Assembly (NCBI RefSeq): GCF_036226465.1
Contig: NZ_CP108476.1
Location: forward strand, 4,960,001 to 5,024,000
Length of the DNA: 64,000 nucleotides
Source of the DNA: Kitasatospora sp. NBC_01250
GTDB lineage: Bacteria; Actinomycetota; Actinomycetes; Streptomycetales; Streptomycetaceae
Reading direction: 5' to 3'
The position numbers and the translations under genes were made by a program. The notes beneath the pieces were generated by a model. It did not search any database and was not told the origin of the DNA. It was given only the letters and a program-made list of their open reading frames with translations. Each line of letters starts with the position of its first letter. Position 1 is the stretch's first letter. This document shows, one piece after another, positions 43,857-49,574 of the stretch.

Positions 43857-43881
43857 TCGATTGACGCCGTGCGTCAATCGA
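43857..43881. promoter_or_regulatory. Operator-like perfect inverted repeat between MFS and ArsR genes
   Basis: TCGATTGACGC and GCGTCAATCGA are perfect 11-bp arms around a 3-base centre, 36 bases before the ArsR gene and 38 before the MFS gene. Typical of an ArsR-family site. Confidence 0.75.
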
Positions 43882-43917
43882 TCCGTCCACACCCGCCGGA
43901 CCTGCGACGATCGCTGG

Positions 43918-45003
43918 ATGAGCGTGATCATCGAGACCGCCGGACTGCCGCCCGAGCGGCTGCTCTTCACCCCCTCGCCGCTGGCCGAGCTGACCGCGAT
44001 GCTGCACGTGCTCGCCGAGCCGGCGCACCATCCGGCGCTGCACGGCTGGGCGGGCACCACTGCCGCCGCGCTGCGCCCCGAGCTGGCGGACCGGCTGCTG
44101 GAGGCGGACTTCCTCTGGCGCTCGTCGCGCGCCGACTTCCTGCTCCCGGCCATCCCCGGGGCCTCGCTGGCCGAGGAACTGGACGCGATCGACCGGCTCG
44201 ACGACGAGCGCTACGTGGCCGGTGCGCTGATCGCCAGCTGCGGATTGAACCGGCTCGCGCTGCGCCCCCACTCGCCGCTGACCGACCCGGTGGAGCGGGA
44301 GCGGGCCATCGAGCTGGCGAACGCCCGCGGGCCCAGGCAGGCGGCCTTCGCCGACCGGCTGCTCTCCGATCCGGCTGCCGTCCGGGCCATCGTGCGCCGC
44401 CTGCTGGAGGACTGCGCCGAGGCCTTCTTCGCGGACGCCTGGGCCCGGGTGCTGCCGGTGCTGGCCGCCGACGCCCGGCACAAGGCCGACCTGCTGGCCC
44501 ACCGTGGCCTGGCCGAGGCGCTGGCGGCCGTCTCCCCGGCGGTGGGCTACGACGCCCGGCAGGGGCGGATCGTCATCGACAAGCTGCAGTCCAGCTCGAC
44601 CAGTGCGGCGAGCACCGGCCTGACCTTCGTGCCCACCGTGTTCGGACGTCCGCACCTGGTGGTGGTGTACGCCGCGGGCTGGCGCCCGGTGGTGCAGTAC
44701 CCGGTCGCGGAGTCCGGGGTGCAGGCGCCGGCCGCGCTGGACCGGGTGCAGCAGCGGCTGGAGGCGCTCGCCAATCCGGCCAGGCTCCGGCTCGCCCGCA
44801 CCCTGGCGCGTGGTGAGCACACCACCGGCGAGCTGGCCGCGGCCTGGCAGCTGACCGAGCCGGAGGTCTCCCGGCACCTCGCGGTGCTGCGCAGGGCCGA
44901 GCTGGTGCTCAGCCGGCGGCGTGGCCGATATGTGCTGTACCGCCTGGACTTGGGTGTCAGTGCCCGATTGGGGACCGACCTGCTGGAAGCCGTGCTGCGC
45001 TAG
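43918..45003 (+). CDS. ArsR-family regulator with large N-terminal (DUF5937-like) domain
   Basis: 361 residues. The last 90 or so form an ArsR winged helix: RLEALANPARLRLARTLARGEHTTGELAAAWQLTEPEVSRHLAVLRRAELV. The first 260 residues form an alpha-helical domain (ESDR-type, DUF5937-like) that opens VIIETAGLPPERLLF. No metal-binding cysteines are seen, so it probably senses a small molecule. It likely represses itself and the MFS gene through the 43857-43881 repeat. Confidence 0.88.
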   Translation: MSVIIETAGLPPERLLFTPSPLAELTAMLHVLAEPAHHPALHGWAGTTAAALRPELADRLLEADFLWRSSRADFLLPAIPGASLAEELDAIDRLDDERYVAGALIASCGLNRLALRPHSPLTDPVERERAIELANARGPRQAAFADRLLSDPAAVRAIVRRLLEDCAEAFFADAWARVLPVLAADARHKADLLAHRGLAEALAAVSPAVGYDARQGRIVIDKLQSSSTSAASTGLTFVPTVFGRPHLVVVYAAGWRPVVQYPVAESGVQAPAALDRVQQRLEALANPARLRLARTLARGEHTTGELAAAWQLTEPEVSRHLAVLRRAELVLSRRRGRYVLYRLDLGVSARLGTDLLEAVLR

Positions 45004-45274
45004 GTGTTCTGACCCGTGAGGTTGGGGGCGCGATCGGGCACCGGGGCGAGGATCGGACAGGGTTGGCCGGAAATCGCCCCTGGTCGCACAGGGGTGCCGC
45101 CGGGTCATCGGTTCGTTTACGCAGGACCTCGCCGCTGCTCGGGACGGTGGGGGGACGGCGGTCGGGACACGGAGCGGGTCCGGCCGCGGGTTCATGCTTT
45201 TCCAGCCGTCCTGGCTTTTCAGGAACGCCGTCCAGGGGCGCGCGTTTAACACGCCGTTATTGCTCTCGCAAGGC
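45004..45274. other. Intergenic region upstream of lanKC
   Basis: No supported gene. An open frame that runs through it into lanKC (from 45194) starts before the promoter at 45275 and has no ribosome site. Confidence 0.6.
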
Positions 45275-45304
45275 TTGAGTCCGGCCGGGAGACCCGGCTA
45301 TAAA
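45275..45304 (+). promoter_or_regulatory. Promoter of lanKC
   Basis: TTGAGT (45275-45280), an 18-base spacer and TATAAA (45299-45304) fit a housekeeping sigma promoter well. Transcription would start near 45311, giving a leader of about 90 bases. Confidence 0.65.
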
Positions 45305-45400
45305 TCCGACCCAACACCGGGCCACAAACGGGCCCGGTCGGTGGAGAAGGCCGGGCACCATCCCGCACGGCCCGTCGAGAGCGTGTGGAGGGATCTCCCG

Positions 45401-47986
45401 GTGCGGCCTTCGGACTACGAGCAGTTCTGCCAGGCGGATCCCGTCTTCTACGACGACCCCGGCGCCCGGGACGACGCCCAGAGCCTCTACCCGCCGGCCG
45501 TCGCCCCGGTCCCCGAGGGCTGGCGCCGCAGCGGCGACAGCGTCTGGGTCTACCTGCACCCCGACGGCCAGACGCTGCCCGACCAGGGCTGGAAGGTGCA
45601 CGTCTCCGGCACCCTCGACGAGGCGCCCGAGATCATCGACATCGTCCTCGATTTCTGTCATGAACAGGAACTGAGCGTCAAATTCCTGCGCAGCCGGGAA
45701 ACCGTGCTGAAGGCGAATTCGAAATACGCACCGCGAGGTTCCAGCGGAAAGCTGCTGACCCTCTACCCGCGGGACGAGACCGAACTGCACCGCACGCTCA
45801 CCGGCCTGGAGCCGCTGCTGGCCGGCCGGCGGGGTCCCTACATCCTCAGTGACCTGCGCTGGCGCGACAGCCTGCTCTACGTCCGCTACGGCGCCTACCG
45901 CCAGCTGTACTGCCTGGACGAGCAGGGCCGCACGGTCTCCGCGCTGCGCGACGCGAACGGCACGCTCGTCCCGGACCTGCGCCGCCCGGTCTTCGCGGTC
46001 CCCGAGTGGATCACCGTCCCCGACTTCCTGCGCGAGCAGATCGAGGCCAGGAGCGACGCCGCTCCCGAGGACTTCCCCTACGACATCGAGAAGGCGCTGC
46101 ACTTCTCCAACGGCGGCGGCGTCTACAAGGCGCGCGACCGGCGCACCGGAGAGGTGGTGGTGCTGCGCGAGGCCCGCCCGATGGCCGGGCTCGACCACCG
46201 CGGCACCGACGCCGTCGAGCGGCTGCACCGCGAACGCGACGTGCTGCGCCGGCTCTCCGGCCTGGACTTCGTGCCCGCGCTGCACGAGCACCTGGTGGTC
46301 TGGGAGCACGAGTACCTGGTCGAGGAGTTCATCGAGGGCGAGAAGCTGGAGCGGCACCTGTTCACCGGCCGCTACCCGCTGCTGCGCGCCGAGCCGGACG
46401 CCGCCACGCTGGCCGAGTACACCGCGCTGGCGCTGGACTACGGCGAGCAGCTGGCCGCCATGCTGCGCACCCTGCACGAGCACGGGGTGGCCTTCGGCGA
46501 CCTCCACCCGGGCAACGTGCTGGTCCGGCCCGACGGCCGGCTCGCCCTGGTCGACTTCGAGCTGGCCTTCGACCTGGTCGACGGGACACCGCCCGGTTTC
46601 GGGGCGCCCGGCTTCATCTCGCACGCCGCCCGCACCGGCACCGCGATCGACAGCTACGCGCTGGCCTGCATGCGGCTGTTCCTCTTCCTGCCGCTGACCT
46701 TCCTGATCGAGCTGGACTCGGGCAAGGCCGAGGCGCTGGCCGAGGCCGCCGCCGAGCGCTTCGCACTGCCCGAAGGCTGGGCCGCGCAGCTGGTGGCCGA
46801 CCTGCGCGCGGCGACCGGCGGGCAGCTGCCGGCCGGCACCACCGAGCGCACCGGGACCGGGCGCCCGCTCGTCGTGCCGGACGGCGCCTCGGACGACGCC
46901 TGGCGGCGGGTGATGGACGAACTGGCCGAGGGCATCCTGGCCGCCGCCACCCCCGAGCGCACCAGCCGGCTCTACCCCGGCGACCCGGAGCAGTTCAACC
47001 GCAACGGCATCGACCTGGCGCACGGCGCCGCCGGCGTGATCTACGCGCTGGCGGAGAGCGGCTACCCGGTGCCCGAGCAGCACGTGGAGTGGCTGCTGCA
47101 GGCGGCCCGCGACCCCAAGGTGGTCCGGCCCGGCCTCTACGACGGCCTGCACGGCACGGCCATTGCCCTGGACCGGCTCGGACTGACCGCCGAGGCCGGC
47201 GAGATCCTGGACCGTGCCCGCGAGCTGACCGAGACCCGGCAGCGGCTCGGGGTCTTCGGCGCCGACCTCGCCGGGGGTCTGGCCGGCATCGGCCTGAGCC
47301 TGCTGCACTTCGCCGACCGGCGCGGCGAGGTCGCCCTGGCCGAGCAGGCACGGGAGTACGGCGAGCGGTTGGCCGCCGGCGCCCCGCTCGGCAGGGGCCG
47401 GGTCGGGCTGCTGCACGGCGGCGCGGGCGTGGCGCTCTTCCTGACCCGGCTGCACGAGCACACCGGCGAGGAGCGCTGGCTGGATCTCGCCTTCGCCGCG
47501 CTCGGCCGCGACCTGGCCGGTGCGCAGGTGGACGAGAAGGGCATGCTGCTCACCCAGGACGGCCAGGGCACCGCCTACCTCGGCGCCGGTTCGGCGGGTG
47601 CGGCGCTGGTCGCCCGCGGGCTGCTGCGGCACCGCGAGGACGCCGCGCTGGCCCAGGCCGTGCCCCTGCTGGACCAGGCCTGTGCGGCCGAATTCCTCCT
47701 GATGCCGGGGCTGTTCGAGGGCCGGGCCGGTATGGTCTGCGCACTCGCGGCGGCCGGCGGTGACGGGCGGCAGCTGGAGCGGCAGGTGTCACTGCTCTCC
47801 TGGCACCTGGTCCGCCACCAGGACCGCGCGGCCTTCCCCGGCCAGCTCCTCTACCGGCTCTCCACCGACCTGGCCACCGGCTCGGCCGGCATCCTGCTGG
47901 CGCTGCACGCGGCGTCGGCCCGGAAGGGCACCGCCCTTCCCCTCCTGGACCACCACGGCGCTCCGGTGTCCGCGGTGCACAAGTAA
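45401..47986 (+). CDS. lanKC: Class III lanthionine synthetase (LanKC/RamC type)
   Basis: 861 residues. Residues 1 to about 215 form the lyase-like N-terminal domain (SDYEQFCQADPVFYD). About 225-430 is a kinase domain: GGGVYKAR as the glycine loop, GDLHPGNVLV with Asp367, and VDFELAF with Asp385; the usual Lys after the loop reads Arg (VLREARP). From about 545 to 850 there is a LanC-like cyclase with YDGLHGTAIAL, LLHGGAGVAL and LFEGRAGMV, which lacks the Cys-Cys-His zinc ligands, as is normal for class III. It phosphorylates and eliminates Ser/Thr and forms (methyl)lanthionine or labionin rings. The GTG at 45401 has GGAGGG 8 bases upstream. The precursor gene follows 62 bases later. Confidence 0.93.
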   Translation: MRPSDYEQFCQADPVFYDDPGARDDAQSLYPPAVAPVPEGWRRSGDSVWVYLHPDGQTLPDQGWKVHVSGTLDEAPEIIDIVLDFCHEQELSVKFLRSRETVLKANSKYAPRGSSGKLLTLYPRDETELHRTLTGLEPLLAGRRGPYILSDLRWRDSLLYVRYGAYRQLYCLDEQGRTVSALRDANGTLVPDLRRPVFAVPEWITVPDFLREQIEARSDAAPEDFPYDIEKALHFSNGGGVYKARDRRTGEVVVLREARPMAGLDHRGTDAVERLHRERDVLRRLSGLDFVPALHEHLVVWEHEYLVEEFIEGEKLERHLFTGRYPLLRAEPDAATLAEYTALALDYGEQLAAMLRTLHEHGVAFGDLHPGNVLVRPDGRLALVDFELAFDLVDGTPPGFGAPGFISHAARTGTAIDSYALACMRLFLFLPLTFLIELDSGKAEALAEAAAERFALPEGWAAQLVADLRAATGGQLPAGTTERTGTGRPLVVPDGASDDAWRRVMDELAEGILAAATPERTSRLYPGDPEQFNRNGIDLAHGAAGVIYALAESGYPVPEQHVEWLLQAARDPKVVRPGLYDGLHGTAIALDRLGLTAEAGEILDRARELTETRQRLGVFGADLAGGLAGIGLSLLHFADRRGEVALAEQAREYGERLAAGAPLGRGRVGLLHGGAGVALFLTRLHEHTGEERWLDLAFAALGRDLAGAQVDEKGMLLTQDGQGTAYLGAGSAGAALVARGLLRHREDAALAQAVPLLDQACAAEFLLMPGLFEGRAGMVCALAAAGGDGRQLERQVSLLSWHLVRHQDRAAFPGQLLYRLSTDLATGSAGILLALHAASARKGTALPLLDHHGAPVSAVHK

Positions 47987-48048
47987 CACCAAACCCCCCG
48001 CCGGCGGCACCACAGAGCCCCGGCAGCTACGAAGAAATGAGGTGTGTC

Positions 48049-48147
48049 ATGGCTTTCATCCTCGACCTCCAGGGCCTGCACGAGGAGTCCGAGTCGATCG
48101 TCGAGTCGATCTTCTGCAGCCACTGGTCCTCGCGCACCTGCATGTGA
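48049..48147 (+). CDS. lanA: Class III lanthipeptide precursor peptide, 32 residues
   Basis: A short gene right after lanKC with GAGGTG 5 bases before its ATG. The leader MAFILDLQGLHEE carries the LxLQ-type recognition motif of class III precursors. The C-terminal part contains SHWSSRTC, which fits the SxxSxxxC ring motif (Ser24, Ser27, Cys31), and an upstream Ser20-x-x-Cys23 that could form a lanthionine; one Met follows the last Cys. At 32 residues it is shorter than RamS (42), with a very short leader. It has one Trp (Trp26). A 16-bp terminator hairpin follows. Confidence 0.85.
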   Translation: MAFILDLQGLHEESESIVESIFCSHWSSRTCM

Positions 48148-48180
48148 CGTTCGCGCACATGACGGTCGTGCAGACCTGAC

Positions 48181-48219
48181 AGCGGTGCCCACCCGAGCCT
48201 CAATCGGGTGGGCACCGCT
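48181..48219 (+). terminator. Terminator after the precursor gene
   Basis: Perfect 16-bp arms (48181-48196 and 48204-48219) with a 7-base loop, 34 bases after the stop. It ends the lanKC-lanA unit. Confidence 0.9.
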
Positions 48220-48293
48220 GCGTGCGGTCACCAGCTCGTGGCCGGCTGCCACCTTATCCCCGGTCGCGCACGGCACGGGTCGATCCGGCCCGG

Positions 48294-48353: not shown

Positions 48354-49574
48354 ATGCGCCGGATCGCCGTCGTCGGAGCGGGCCAGGCCGGGCTGCACCT
48401 CGCGCTCGGCCTGCTGGCGGCCGGGTACCAGGTCACCCTGGTCGCCGCGCGTACCCCGGAGCAACTGCGCGGTGGGCGGGTGCTGTCCACCCAGGCGCTG
48501 TTCGGGCCCGCGCTGCGGATCGAGCGGGCCGCAGGCCTGGACCTCTGGGCGGACCGGGCCCCGGCGGTGCACTCGGTGGACGCCGTCCTCGCCGCCCCGC
48601 CCGGTGTGCGGGCGCTGGCGTACACCATGACCCTGGACGAGCCGGCGCAGTCGGTCGACCAGCGGCTGAAGATGGCCGGCTGGCTGGAGCTGTTCGCCGA
48701 GCGCGGCGGTCGCACCGAGTACCGCACGGTCGACCGCGCCGCCCTCCAACAGATCGCCGAAGCACACGAGTTGACCGTGGTGGCGAGCGGTCGGGGCGAG
48801 CTCGCCGAGCTCTTCGCCCGGGACGCCGCGCGCTCGGCCCCGCAGCCTCGGCGCACGCTCTGCTGCCTCTACGCGCACGGGGTCGGCTCGCCGGACCCGG
48901 GCGCCGGGCCGCGGGCGCGGATGAACGCGATCCCGCAGGGCGGCGAGCTCTACCTGCAGCCCGCGCTGACCCTCTCCGGCCCCTGCGCGATCCTGCTCTG
49001 GGAGGCGGTGCCGGGCGGGCCGCTGGACTGCTTTCCCGACCGCCCCGGACCGGTGGAGCAACTCGACCGGATGCGCGGCCTGTTGCGCGACTTCCTGCCC
49101 TGGGAGTACGAGCTGTGGGCCGAGGCCGAGCCCACCGACGCGCTCGGCAACCTCTACGGCGCGGTGACCCCGACGGTGCGGCACCCGGTGGCCGAACTCG
49201 ACCACGGCTGCCACGTGCTGGGCATCGGCGACACGGTGGTGCTGAACGACCCGATCACCGGCCAGGGCGCCAACAATGCGACGCGGGCCGCCGCGCGCTA
49301 CCTGCGGGCGATCACCGAGCACGGCGAGGCGGCGTTCACCCCGGACTGGATGCGGCGGACCTTCGACCTGCACTGGCGTGAAGAGGCCCGCCACAGCGTG
49401 GAGTTCACCGCCACCATGCTCGACATGCCGGAGCACCTGCAGCGGGTGTTCGGCGCGGCGGCCGAACACCCGCAGGTGGCCCGGCGGTTGGCCAACACCT
49501 ACGCCGAGCCGGGCGACTACGCGAACTGGCTCGCCACGCCCGAGCTGACCGCGGCGTACCTGGCCTCGCTCTGA
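48354..49574 (+). CDS. StyA-like (styrene/indole) FAD-dependent monooxygenase
   Basis: 406 residues. The FAD motif GAGQAGLHLALGLL is at about 8-21 and the second FAD block GIGDTVVLNDPITGQGANNATRAA at about 281-304. The order and wording follow styrene monooxygenase StyA, a two-component enzyme needing reduced FAD from a separate reductase; no reductase gene is adjacent. Such enzymes epoxidise styrene or indole or oxidise sulfides. GGGAG precedes the ATG. It has its own likely promoter after the lanthipeptide terminator, so a tailoring role for the Trp- and Cys-containing peptide is possible but only inferred. Confidence 0.85.
   Translation: MRRIAVVGAGQAGLHLALGLLAAGYQVTLVAARTPEQLRGGRVLSTQALFGPALRIERAAGLDLWADRAPAVHSVDAVLAAPPGVRALAYTMTLDEPAQSVDQRLKMAGWLELFAERGGRTEYRTVDRAALQQIAEAHELTVVASGRGELAELFARDAARSAPQPRRTLCCLYAHGVGSPDPGAGPRARMNAIPQGGELYLQPALTLSGPCAILLWEAVPGGPLDCFPDRPGPVEQLDRMRGLLRDFLPWEYELWAEAEPTDALGNLYGAVTPTVRHPVAELDHGCHVLGIGDTVVLNDPITGQGANNATRAAARYLRAITEHGEAAFTPDWMRRTFDLHWREEARHSVEFTATMLDMPEHLQRVFGAAAEHPQVARRLANTYAEPGDYANWLATPELTAAYLASL

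Follow-up and report, generated by a model that had tools for sequence, protein, structure and literature searches.

The lanKC-lanA locus

A 64,000-nucleotide stretch of the Kitasatospora sp. NBC_01250 genome (hereafter the window; positions 4,960,001-5,024,000 of the 9.0-Mb single-contig genome) carries two adjacent genes, lanKC and lanA, which are a class III lanthipeptide system, as an earlier sequence-only reading had proposed. The lanKC gene (45401..47986, + strand; window coordinates throughout) starts with GTG and encodes an 861-residue class III lanthionine synthetase with lyase and kinase domains and a cyclase domain without Zn ligands. The lanA gene (48049..48147, + strand) encodes the 32-residue precursor MAFILDLQGLHEESESIVESIFCSHWSSRTCM, in which the labionin-type S-x2-S-x3-C motif SHWSSRTC occupies codons 24-31 (48118..48141, + strand). 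Comparison with other genomes indicates that the pair is probably a stand-alone, horizontally transferred class III cassette of about 3 kb. Its leader and its missing transporter are nothing special; the lead worth following is a Cys-to-His swap in the precursors of a sister clade. Genomes and loci are cited below by our G and L numbers where they must be told apart.

The LanKC synthetase

The lanKC product scores 966 bits against the NCBIfam model NF038151, "class III lanthionine synthetase LanKC" (cut-off 575), and 402 bits against the class IV model, which is under the 650-bit cut-off of the latter. Pfam domains RamC_N, Pkinase and LANC_like account for the lyase, kinase and cyclase, and solved LanKC chains, 8sao and 8sap among them, rank with its best Protein Data Bank matches. 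In each of the five genomes the codon aligned with position 45401, just before RPSDYE, is ATG or GTG; a second in-frame start six codons upstream is present in the window and in G152. No other strong LanKC match was found in the same genome. The runner-up, at 34.7 bits, is a 970-aa frame with 29% identity (G000:C1:6370787-6373129, locus L002), perhaps a synthetase of another lanthipeptide class.

In the cyclase domain the Cys-His pair of Zn ligands is replaced by Phe777-Glu778 (P0001 numbering), Phe-Glu occupies this column in the seven clade members aligned (7/7), and the third ligand position falls at Gly735/Ser736. The Phe777-Glu778 pair aligns with Phe770-Asp771 of the labionin-forming ThurKC; the authors of that study did not find the protected labionin fragment with either F770A or D771A enzyme (PMC10604976). 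Glu at the column of Glu778 occurs in 8 of the 70 LanKC rows aligned, namely the seven of the window clade and L052, and as a putative marker of labionin formation it is only suggestive.

The LanA precursor

The sequence-only reading had placed a very small precursor gene directly downstream of the synthetase, with an LxLQ leader motif, an S-x2-S-x3-C motif and an extra Cys. The open reading frame (ORF) at 48049-48147 reads just so, with LDLQ, SHWSSRTC and Cys23. The same peptide is encoded right after lanKC in G003, G028 (Streptomyces sp. CB01881, L048), G020 (Streptomyces sp. NRRL WC-3742, L049) and G152; the last belongs to a genus other than that of the window, and the five genomes with the pair thus span two genera. 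Their LanKC enzymes range from 93% down to 67% identity to that of the window, and loss of the peptide from relatives that keep lanKC, which the earlier reading had named as a result that would refute it, is not seen in any of the four with LanKC identity of at least 67%. Across the five peptides 26 of 32 columns are invariant, and in the SHWSSRTC octet the one variable position is residue 30, where T or A is found. In G003 an Asn replaces Ser14, which is therefore no essential modification site.

Conservation of lanA goes beyond chance, because in G028 and G020 the DNA 3' of the gene can no longer be aligned while its codons still can. The ratio of nonsynonymous to synonymous substitution rates is below 1 in 10 of 10 pairs (0.07-0.76), although on small counts. 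A peptide of 32 residues lies under the limits usual in ORF calling, and one might suppose that this ORF arose by chance and that the true precursor lies elsewhere. That is barely credible: the peptide and its ribosome-binding site are conserved beside lanKC in five genomes, 48049-48147 is the sole profile match in its own genome, and the 26 invariant positions rule a chance ORF out.

A profile search of the genus found a strong LanA match in 4 of 70 genomes, the window's own included, with the profile built from those same four peptides; G009 and G053 matched weakly (E about 0.09). A search of the family for a LanKC resembling the G053 enzyme (E <= 1e-215) yielded 8 of 297 genomes: five with the window-type peptide, two with precursors devoid of Cys, and one in which the locus is cut by a contig end. 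The strings SHWSSRTC, CSHWSS, LDLQGLHEE and SHWSSRAC did not occur in the open-access paper texts searched, supplements excluded. The window precursor is a new core family within class III.

Leader length and the predicted product

According to the sequence-only reading the leader has 13-15 residues and is shorter than that of RamS. This does not hold. The ring motif of LanA starts 16 residues after the leader Gln, which is the median for 80 class III precursors (range 11-21); these are the 80 of 90 in which the motif was found, four of them belong to the window family, and the ORFs, many from near relatives, had been selected by their motif and by a permissive filter for a ribosome-binding site. 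Since the spacing is the median, residues 9-22 stand in for an ordinary leader; the leader is of ordinary length, it is the core (about residues 20-32) that is short, and an unusually short leader is ruled out. The five LanA sequences could readily be used to test how far the leader of a class III precursor extends.

Precursors of 32-33 residues also lie beside other LanKCs (L053, L061, L063, L064, L065, L068, L072 and L135). Those of L061, L063, L064, L065, L068 and L072, which belong to a distant LanKC clade, combine an early Cys with an SS-[RKS]-G-S-x-C end, a layout that resembles C...SSRTCM of the window. In class III precursors of L153 (G136), L155 (G126), L154 (G210), L156 (G332) and L052 the only Cys precedes the Ser cluster, as in FCISGSWSHWSIHTA, PPCFSVAWSISDIFPEPM and NCVSWTSSNTAF, an arrangement that suggests rings closed in the reverse direction.

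Very probably the two genes act as a self-contained class III cassette in which LanKC would modify LanA. The product predicted as most likely has one ring, perhaps a labionin, which the motif permits, built from Ser24, Ser27 and Cys31; Cys23 would remain free or belong to a second, smaller ring. The steps would be those reported for class III biosynthesis in the cases of ThurKC and noursin (PMC10604976, PMC10206099). LanKC, by analogy with its family, would hold the LDLQ leader as a helix and phosphorylate Ser24 and Ser27, perhaps Ser20 and Ser28 as well, and elimination of phosphate would leave dehydroalanine (Dha). The thiol of Cys31 would attack Dha27, and the resulting enolate would attack Dha24 to close a labionin ring over residues 24-31; should the enolate attack fail, a plain lanthionine would form instead. 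Cys23 would either close a four-residue lanthionine with Dha20 (Ser20-x2-Cys23) or stay free for a disulfide. Leader removal and export would fall to proteins encoded elsewhere. Outside the cell, we judge a putative antimicrobial or signalling use more likely than that of a SapB-type surfactant, and a SapB-like role as a morphogen is a guess.

Some observations weigh against this picture. Depending on the peptide, S-x2-S-x3-C motifs yield lanthionine or labionin (PMC7268733), and Ser16, Glu19 and Ser20 are as invariant in the five genomes as the ring motif itself, so that a longer, two-ring core remains in play. Such a core, SIVESIFC-SHWSSRTC-M, would comprise 17 residues after a leader of 13-15. 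Both of its octets run from Ser to Cys over eight residues, Ser16 and Ser20 are invariant, and the S-x3-S spacing of the first is that of the labionin known in noursin (PMC10206099). Ser16 lies only eight residues past the leader Gln, however, against 11-21 (median 16) for the first motif Ser or Thr of the 80 precursors, and the stretch ahead of the motif varies in length in the sister clade; we regard the two-ring core as unlikely. In a stronger competitor, although still on the improbable side of even, residues 24-31 would form the only ring (labionin or lanthionine), Ser20 would stay unmodified, and Cys23 would be a free thiol or part of a disulfide. The motif and its distance from the leader Gln agree with that version, as do sister precursors that have no equivalent of Cys23 and in which the ring motif stands alone; invariance of Cys23 and Ser20 in the five genomes speaks against it.

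A sister clade with His in place of the ring Cys

In a LanKC tree of 70 rows (LG+G4, quick search, SH-aLRT support, no bootstrap) the five enzymes with Cys-type precursors form one clade (100), sister to those of G053 and G018 (99). Left out of the tree were L009-L012 (copies), L075 (truncated), L069-L071 (no usable LanKC) and the LanKC of G170, whose later matches lie in another frame (assembly completeness 76%), though one 944-aa open frame is listed. The precursors beside the sister enzymes are devoid of Cys: one in G053 (L040), two in G018 (L041), three in tandem in G040 (L113), where LanKC is cut by the contig end, and one in G170 (L152), a member of another genus whose LanKC fragment shares 60% identity with that of G053. 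G103 also has a LanKC of this clade, and its precursor is not visible because that gene is cut by a contig end. From four genomes and two genera, then, come precursors of 40-49 residues with a C-terminal extension and a His at the position of the ring Cys.

Alignment of the seven Cys-less precursors shows a common leader pattern (M1, I4, L5, L7, Q8, L10), past which only the Ser, Ser and His of S-x2-S-x3-H are invariant. When 128 ways of spacing two Ser and one His were compared, no other occurred in all seven, the next best reaching four, with the limit that the pattern had been noticed in these precursors before it was tested on them. In a scan of all loci collected, six LxLQ ORFs lacked Cys and had a ribosome-binding site, each of them with the motif (Ser or Thr; 6/6); the second G040 copy does not pass the ribosome-binding-site filter. 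Near relatives make up five of the seven octets (SHWSS twice, SHWST, SHTSS and SHWSG), and SHWS, found in four of the seven, also begins the window octet SHWSSRTC; the last residue of the Cys-less octets, His, stands where the window peptide has Cys31. The divergent octets match as well: SFLSTQSH, of the third G040 copy, with a shuffle frequency of 0.023, and SEISSFTH, of G170, with 0.017. As the seven precursors are not independent, near-independent support comes from these two octets only.

A profile search matched 17 of 297 genomes at E <= 0.05, and among the loci read (L111, L113-L120 and L129; L121-L128 and L130 were left out, L128 being a second G018 copy) Cys-less LxLQ precursors were confined to G018, G053, G040 and G170. 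The last class-wide profile search for such precursors gave one partial match in 296 genomes (profile positions 1-28, E 3.6e-4). After the G053 precursor comes a convergent gene with a LuxR/GerE-type helix-turn-helix (Pfam; L040 8873-10042), and a similar sequence lies on the minus strand of L113 in G040; it may be a regulator of Cys-less precursors.

A divergence confined to the cyclase domain of the Cys-less clade is not clearly seen: identity between Cys-type and Cys-less LanKC is 45% in the cyclase, 52% in the lyase and 63% in the kinase, and identity to an AmfT-like cyclase is 44% for the Cys-less and 47% for the Cys-type. In the LanKC alignment, there is no position at which at least 93% of the remaining LanKCs agree and both Cys-less rows differ, and hence no enzyme residue marks a His chemistry.

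One reading of these data, which we put forward as doubtful, is that the clade of the window LanKC changed its ring nucleophile: the sister branch would close a sulfur-free ring by His (histidino-labionin or histidinoalanine), and the window peptide would be its thioether counterpart. Two things argue against a His ring: in the alignment the Cys-less clade is distinguished by no residue of LanKC, and NorKC dehydrated a C15H substrate and formed no ring on it (PMC10206099). Alternatively, the Cys-less products could be linear dehydroalanine peptides, or the His could serve in metal binding. In the open-access literature searched, where not every paper was examined in full, class III precursors that lack Cys and carry S-x2-S-x3-H were not found reported. 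One survey pipeline removed any ORF that had no Cys (PMC7268733), a step that would hide such precursors.

The sister clade makes it testable whether a metal-free LanKC cyclase can close a ring by His alone. If a natural His ring is real, it would reveal what determines the nucleophile that is used, the C15H substrate of NorKC having failed to cyclise (PMC10206099), and such peptides would escape any precursor finder that discards ORFs lacking Cys.

Neighbouring genes and probable transfer of the cassette

When the 41 gene calls of the window are compared with five related loci (L037-L041), lanKC alone is common to them, apart from one distant match of 35% identity. Upstream lies a gene for an ArsR/DUF5937 regulator (43861-45003), and beside the cassette downstream one for a StyA-like flavin monooxygenase with a Smoa_sbd domain (48354-49574). 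A larger cluster might be imagined in which these two belong with the pair and the monooxygenase acts on Trp26; the genes are adjacent, the Trp of LanA is invariant and the domain is of the type named. Such a cluster is highly improbable. In the five related loci lanKC has neither flank gene close by. Across the genus both are frequent independently of this lanKC (monooxygenase in 38 of 70 genomes, regulator in 51 of 70), and in G003, G018, G020 and G053 they are found on contigs other than that of lanKC or at a distance of over 0.5 Mb. Homology to the G152 cassette, moreover, ends at 48282. Locus comparison and genus distribution together rule the cluster out.

Each copy of the cassette has flanks of its own: a peptidase S41 and a histidine kinase in G003, an alpha/beta hydrolase in G028, a xanthine/uracil-type permease and DUF4328 in G020, and a flavodoxin-like protein and an ammonium transporter in G152. 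DNA homology to the window extends over 45026-48282 in G152 and, in two pieces, over 45151-48232 in G003. As a housekeeping yardstick we used a gene that we take from its sequence to be purA. DNA identity to the window, cassette then purA, is 91/90% for G152, 86/96% for G003, 79/92% for G028 and 73/94% for G020. The closest cassette is thus in another genus, although purA places G152 furthest (G003 96, G020 94, G028 92, G152 90%), and this reversal points to horizontal transfer. With no other conserved neighbour and its most similar copy in another genus, the pair is read as stand-alone and probably mobile; that a single housekeeping gene served as the yardstick counts against that view. The class III precursor family added here is thus compact and, it appears, mobile.

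A plasmid origin was considered and rejected, since the 21 plasmid records that match LanKC at E <= 1e-60 are each below 60% identity. On three Streptomyces plasmids (NZ_CP108358.1, NZ_CP108150.1 and NZ_CP108112.1) the LanKC matches overlap features annotated as LanKC and as the daptide metalloprotease mpaP, a possible mixed locus for ribosomally synthesized and post-translationally modified peptides.

Predicted expression signals

Upstream of lanKC, the inverted repeat TAAC-N5-GTTA (45247..45259, no strand assigned) is identical in G003 and G028, differs by one or two changes in G020 and G152, and is a possible operator. A putative promoter, TTGAGT-N18-TATAAA (45275..45304, + strand), is kept in G003 and G152, partly kept in G028 and absent in G020; a sigma-70 consensus scan of the + strand reported no promoter at these positions. 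GGAGGG (45387..45392, + strand) is the likely ribosome-binding site of lanKC, with a G-rich site there in five of five genomes, and GAGG (48039..48042, + strand) that of lanA, 6-7 bases before the ATG in all five. Downstream, a predicted hairpin with a 17-bp stem (48180..48220, + strand), its sequence kept in G003 and G152, likely marks the end of transcription of the pair; the 88-nt stretch that holds it folds at -52.1 kcal/mol (z -5.3). It has no T-run, for which reason a terminator scan reports nothing there. The hairpin lends support to the proposal of a two-gene unit ending near 48220.

The transporter question

The earlier reading also remarked on a missing transporter. Within 8 kb of lanKC a motif scan (Walker A and signature motifs only) indeed found no ATP-binding cassette (ABC) ATPase motif, and that part stands; as a distinctive trait it does not. 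Among 23 other named class III loci (L050-L072; L069-L071 are weak LanKC relatives) the motif was found within 8 kb in 4 and not found in 19. Eight of the 23 have less than 8 kb on one side (L052, L054, L056, L061, L065, L068, L069 and L070), and the 15 whose two flanks each reach 8 kb or more divide into 4 with a motif hit and 11 without one. An ABC-like ORF lies 3.6 kb from the cassette in the relative G003.

Comparison with known class III systems

Loci that we take, from their sequences, to be those of AmfS and SapB (RamS) share with the window the type of LanKC, the LDLQ leader, a Gln-to-ring distance of about 16 and S-x2-S-x3-C. They differ in having two such motifs, whereas the window peptide has one canonical ring motif, its first octet being S-x3-S-x2-C, and in a precursor of about 41-45 residues against 32. 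Ring residues of the window peptide are polar or aromatic (HW, SRT) and less hydrophobic than the LLL of SapB-like peptides, and in the tree its LanKC clade is separate from LanKCs with AmfS- or RamS-like precursors. Unlike SapB/AmfS-type loci with their adjacent ABC transporter genes, the window shows no ABC ATPase motif within 8 kb. With labyrinthopeptin A2 the window peptide has in common the octet S-x-W-S-x-x-x-C with Trp in third place; unlike labyrinthopeptin A2, it has neither a C-terminal double Cys nor a second canonical ring.

Noursin (NorA/NorKC) is a LanKC product with a His in a crosslink besides labionin (PMC10206099). There Cys serves for labionin and His for an extra crosslink to dehydrobutyrine (PMC10206099), whereas the window peptide has two Cys. 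For a LanKC-Hbt system of the noursin type a Thr three residues before the His would be expected, and in the window peptide Phe22 is found there, before His25. In the Cys-less sisters, unlike noursin as it is described (PMC10206099), the His stands in the place of the ring Cys itself.

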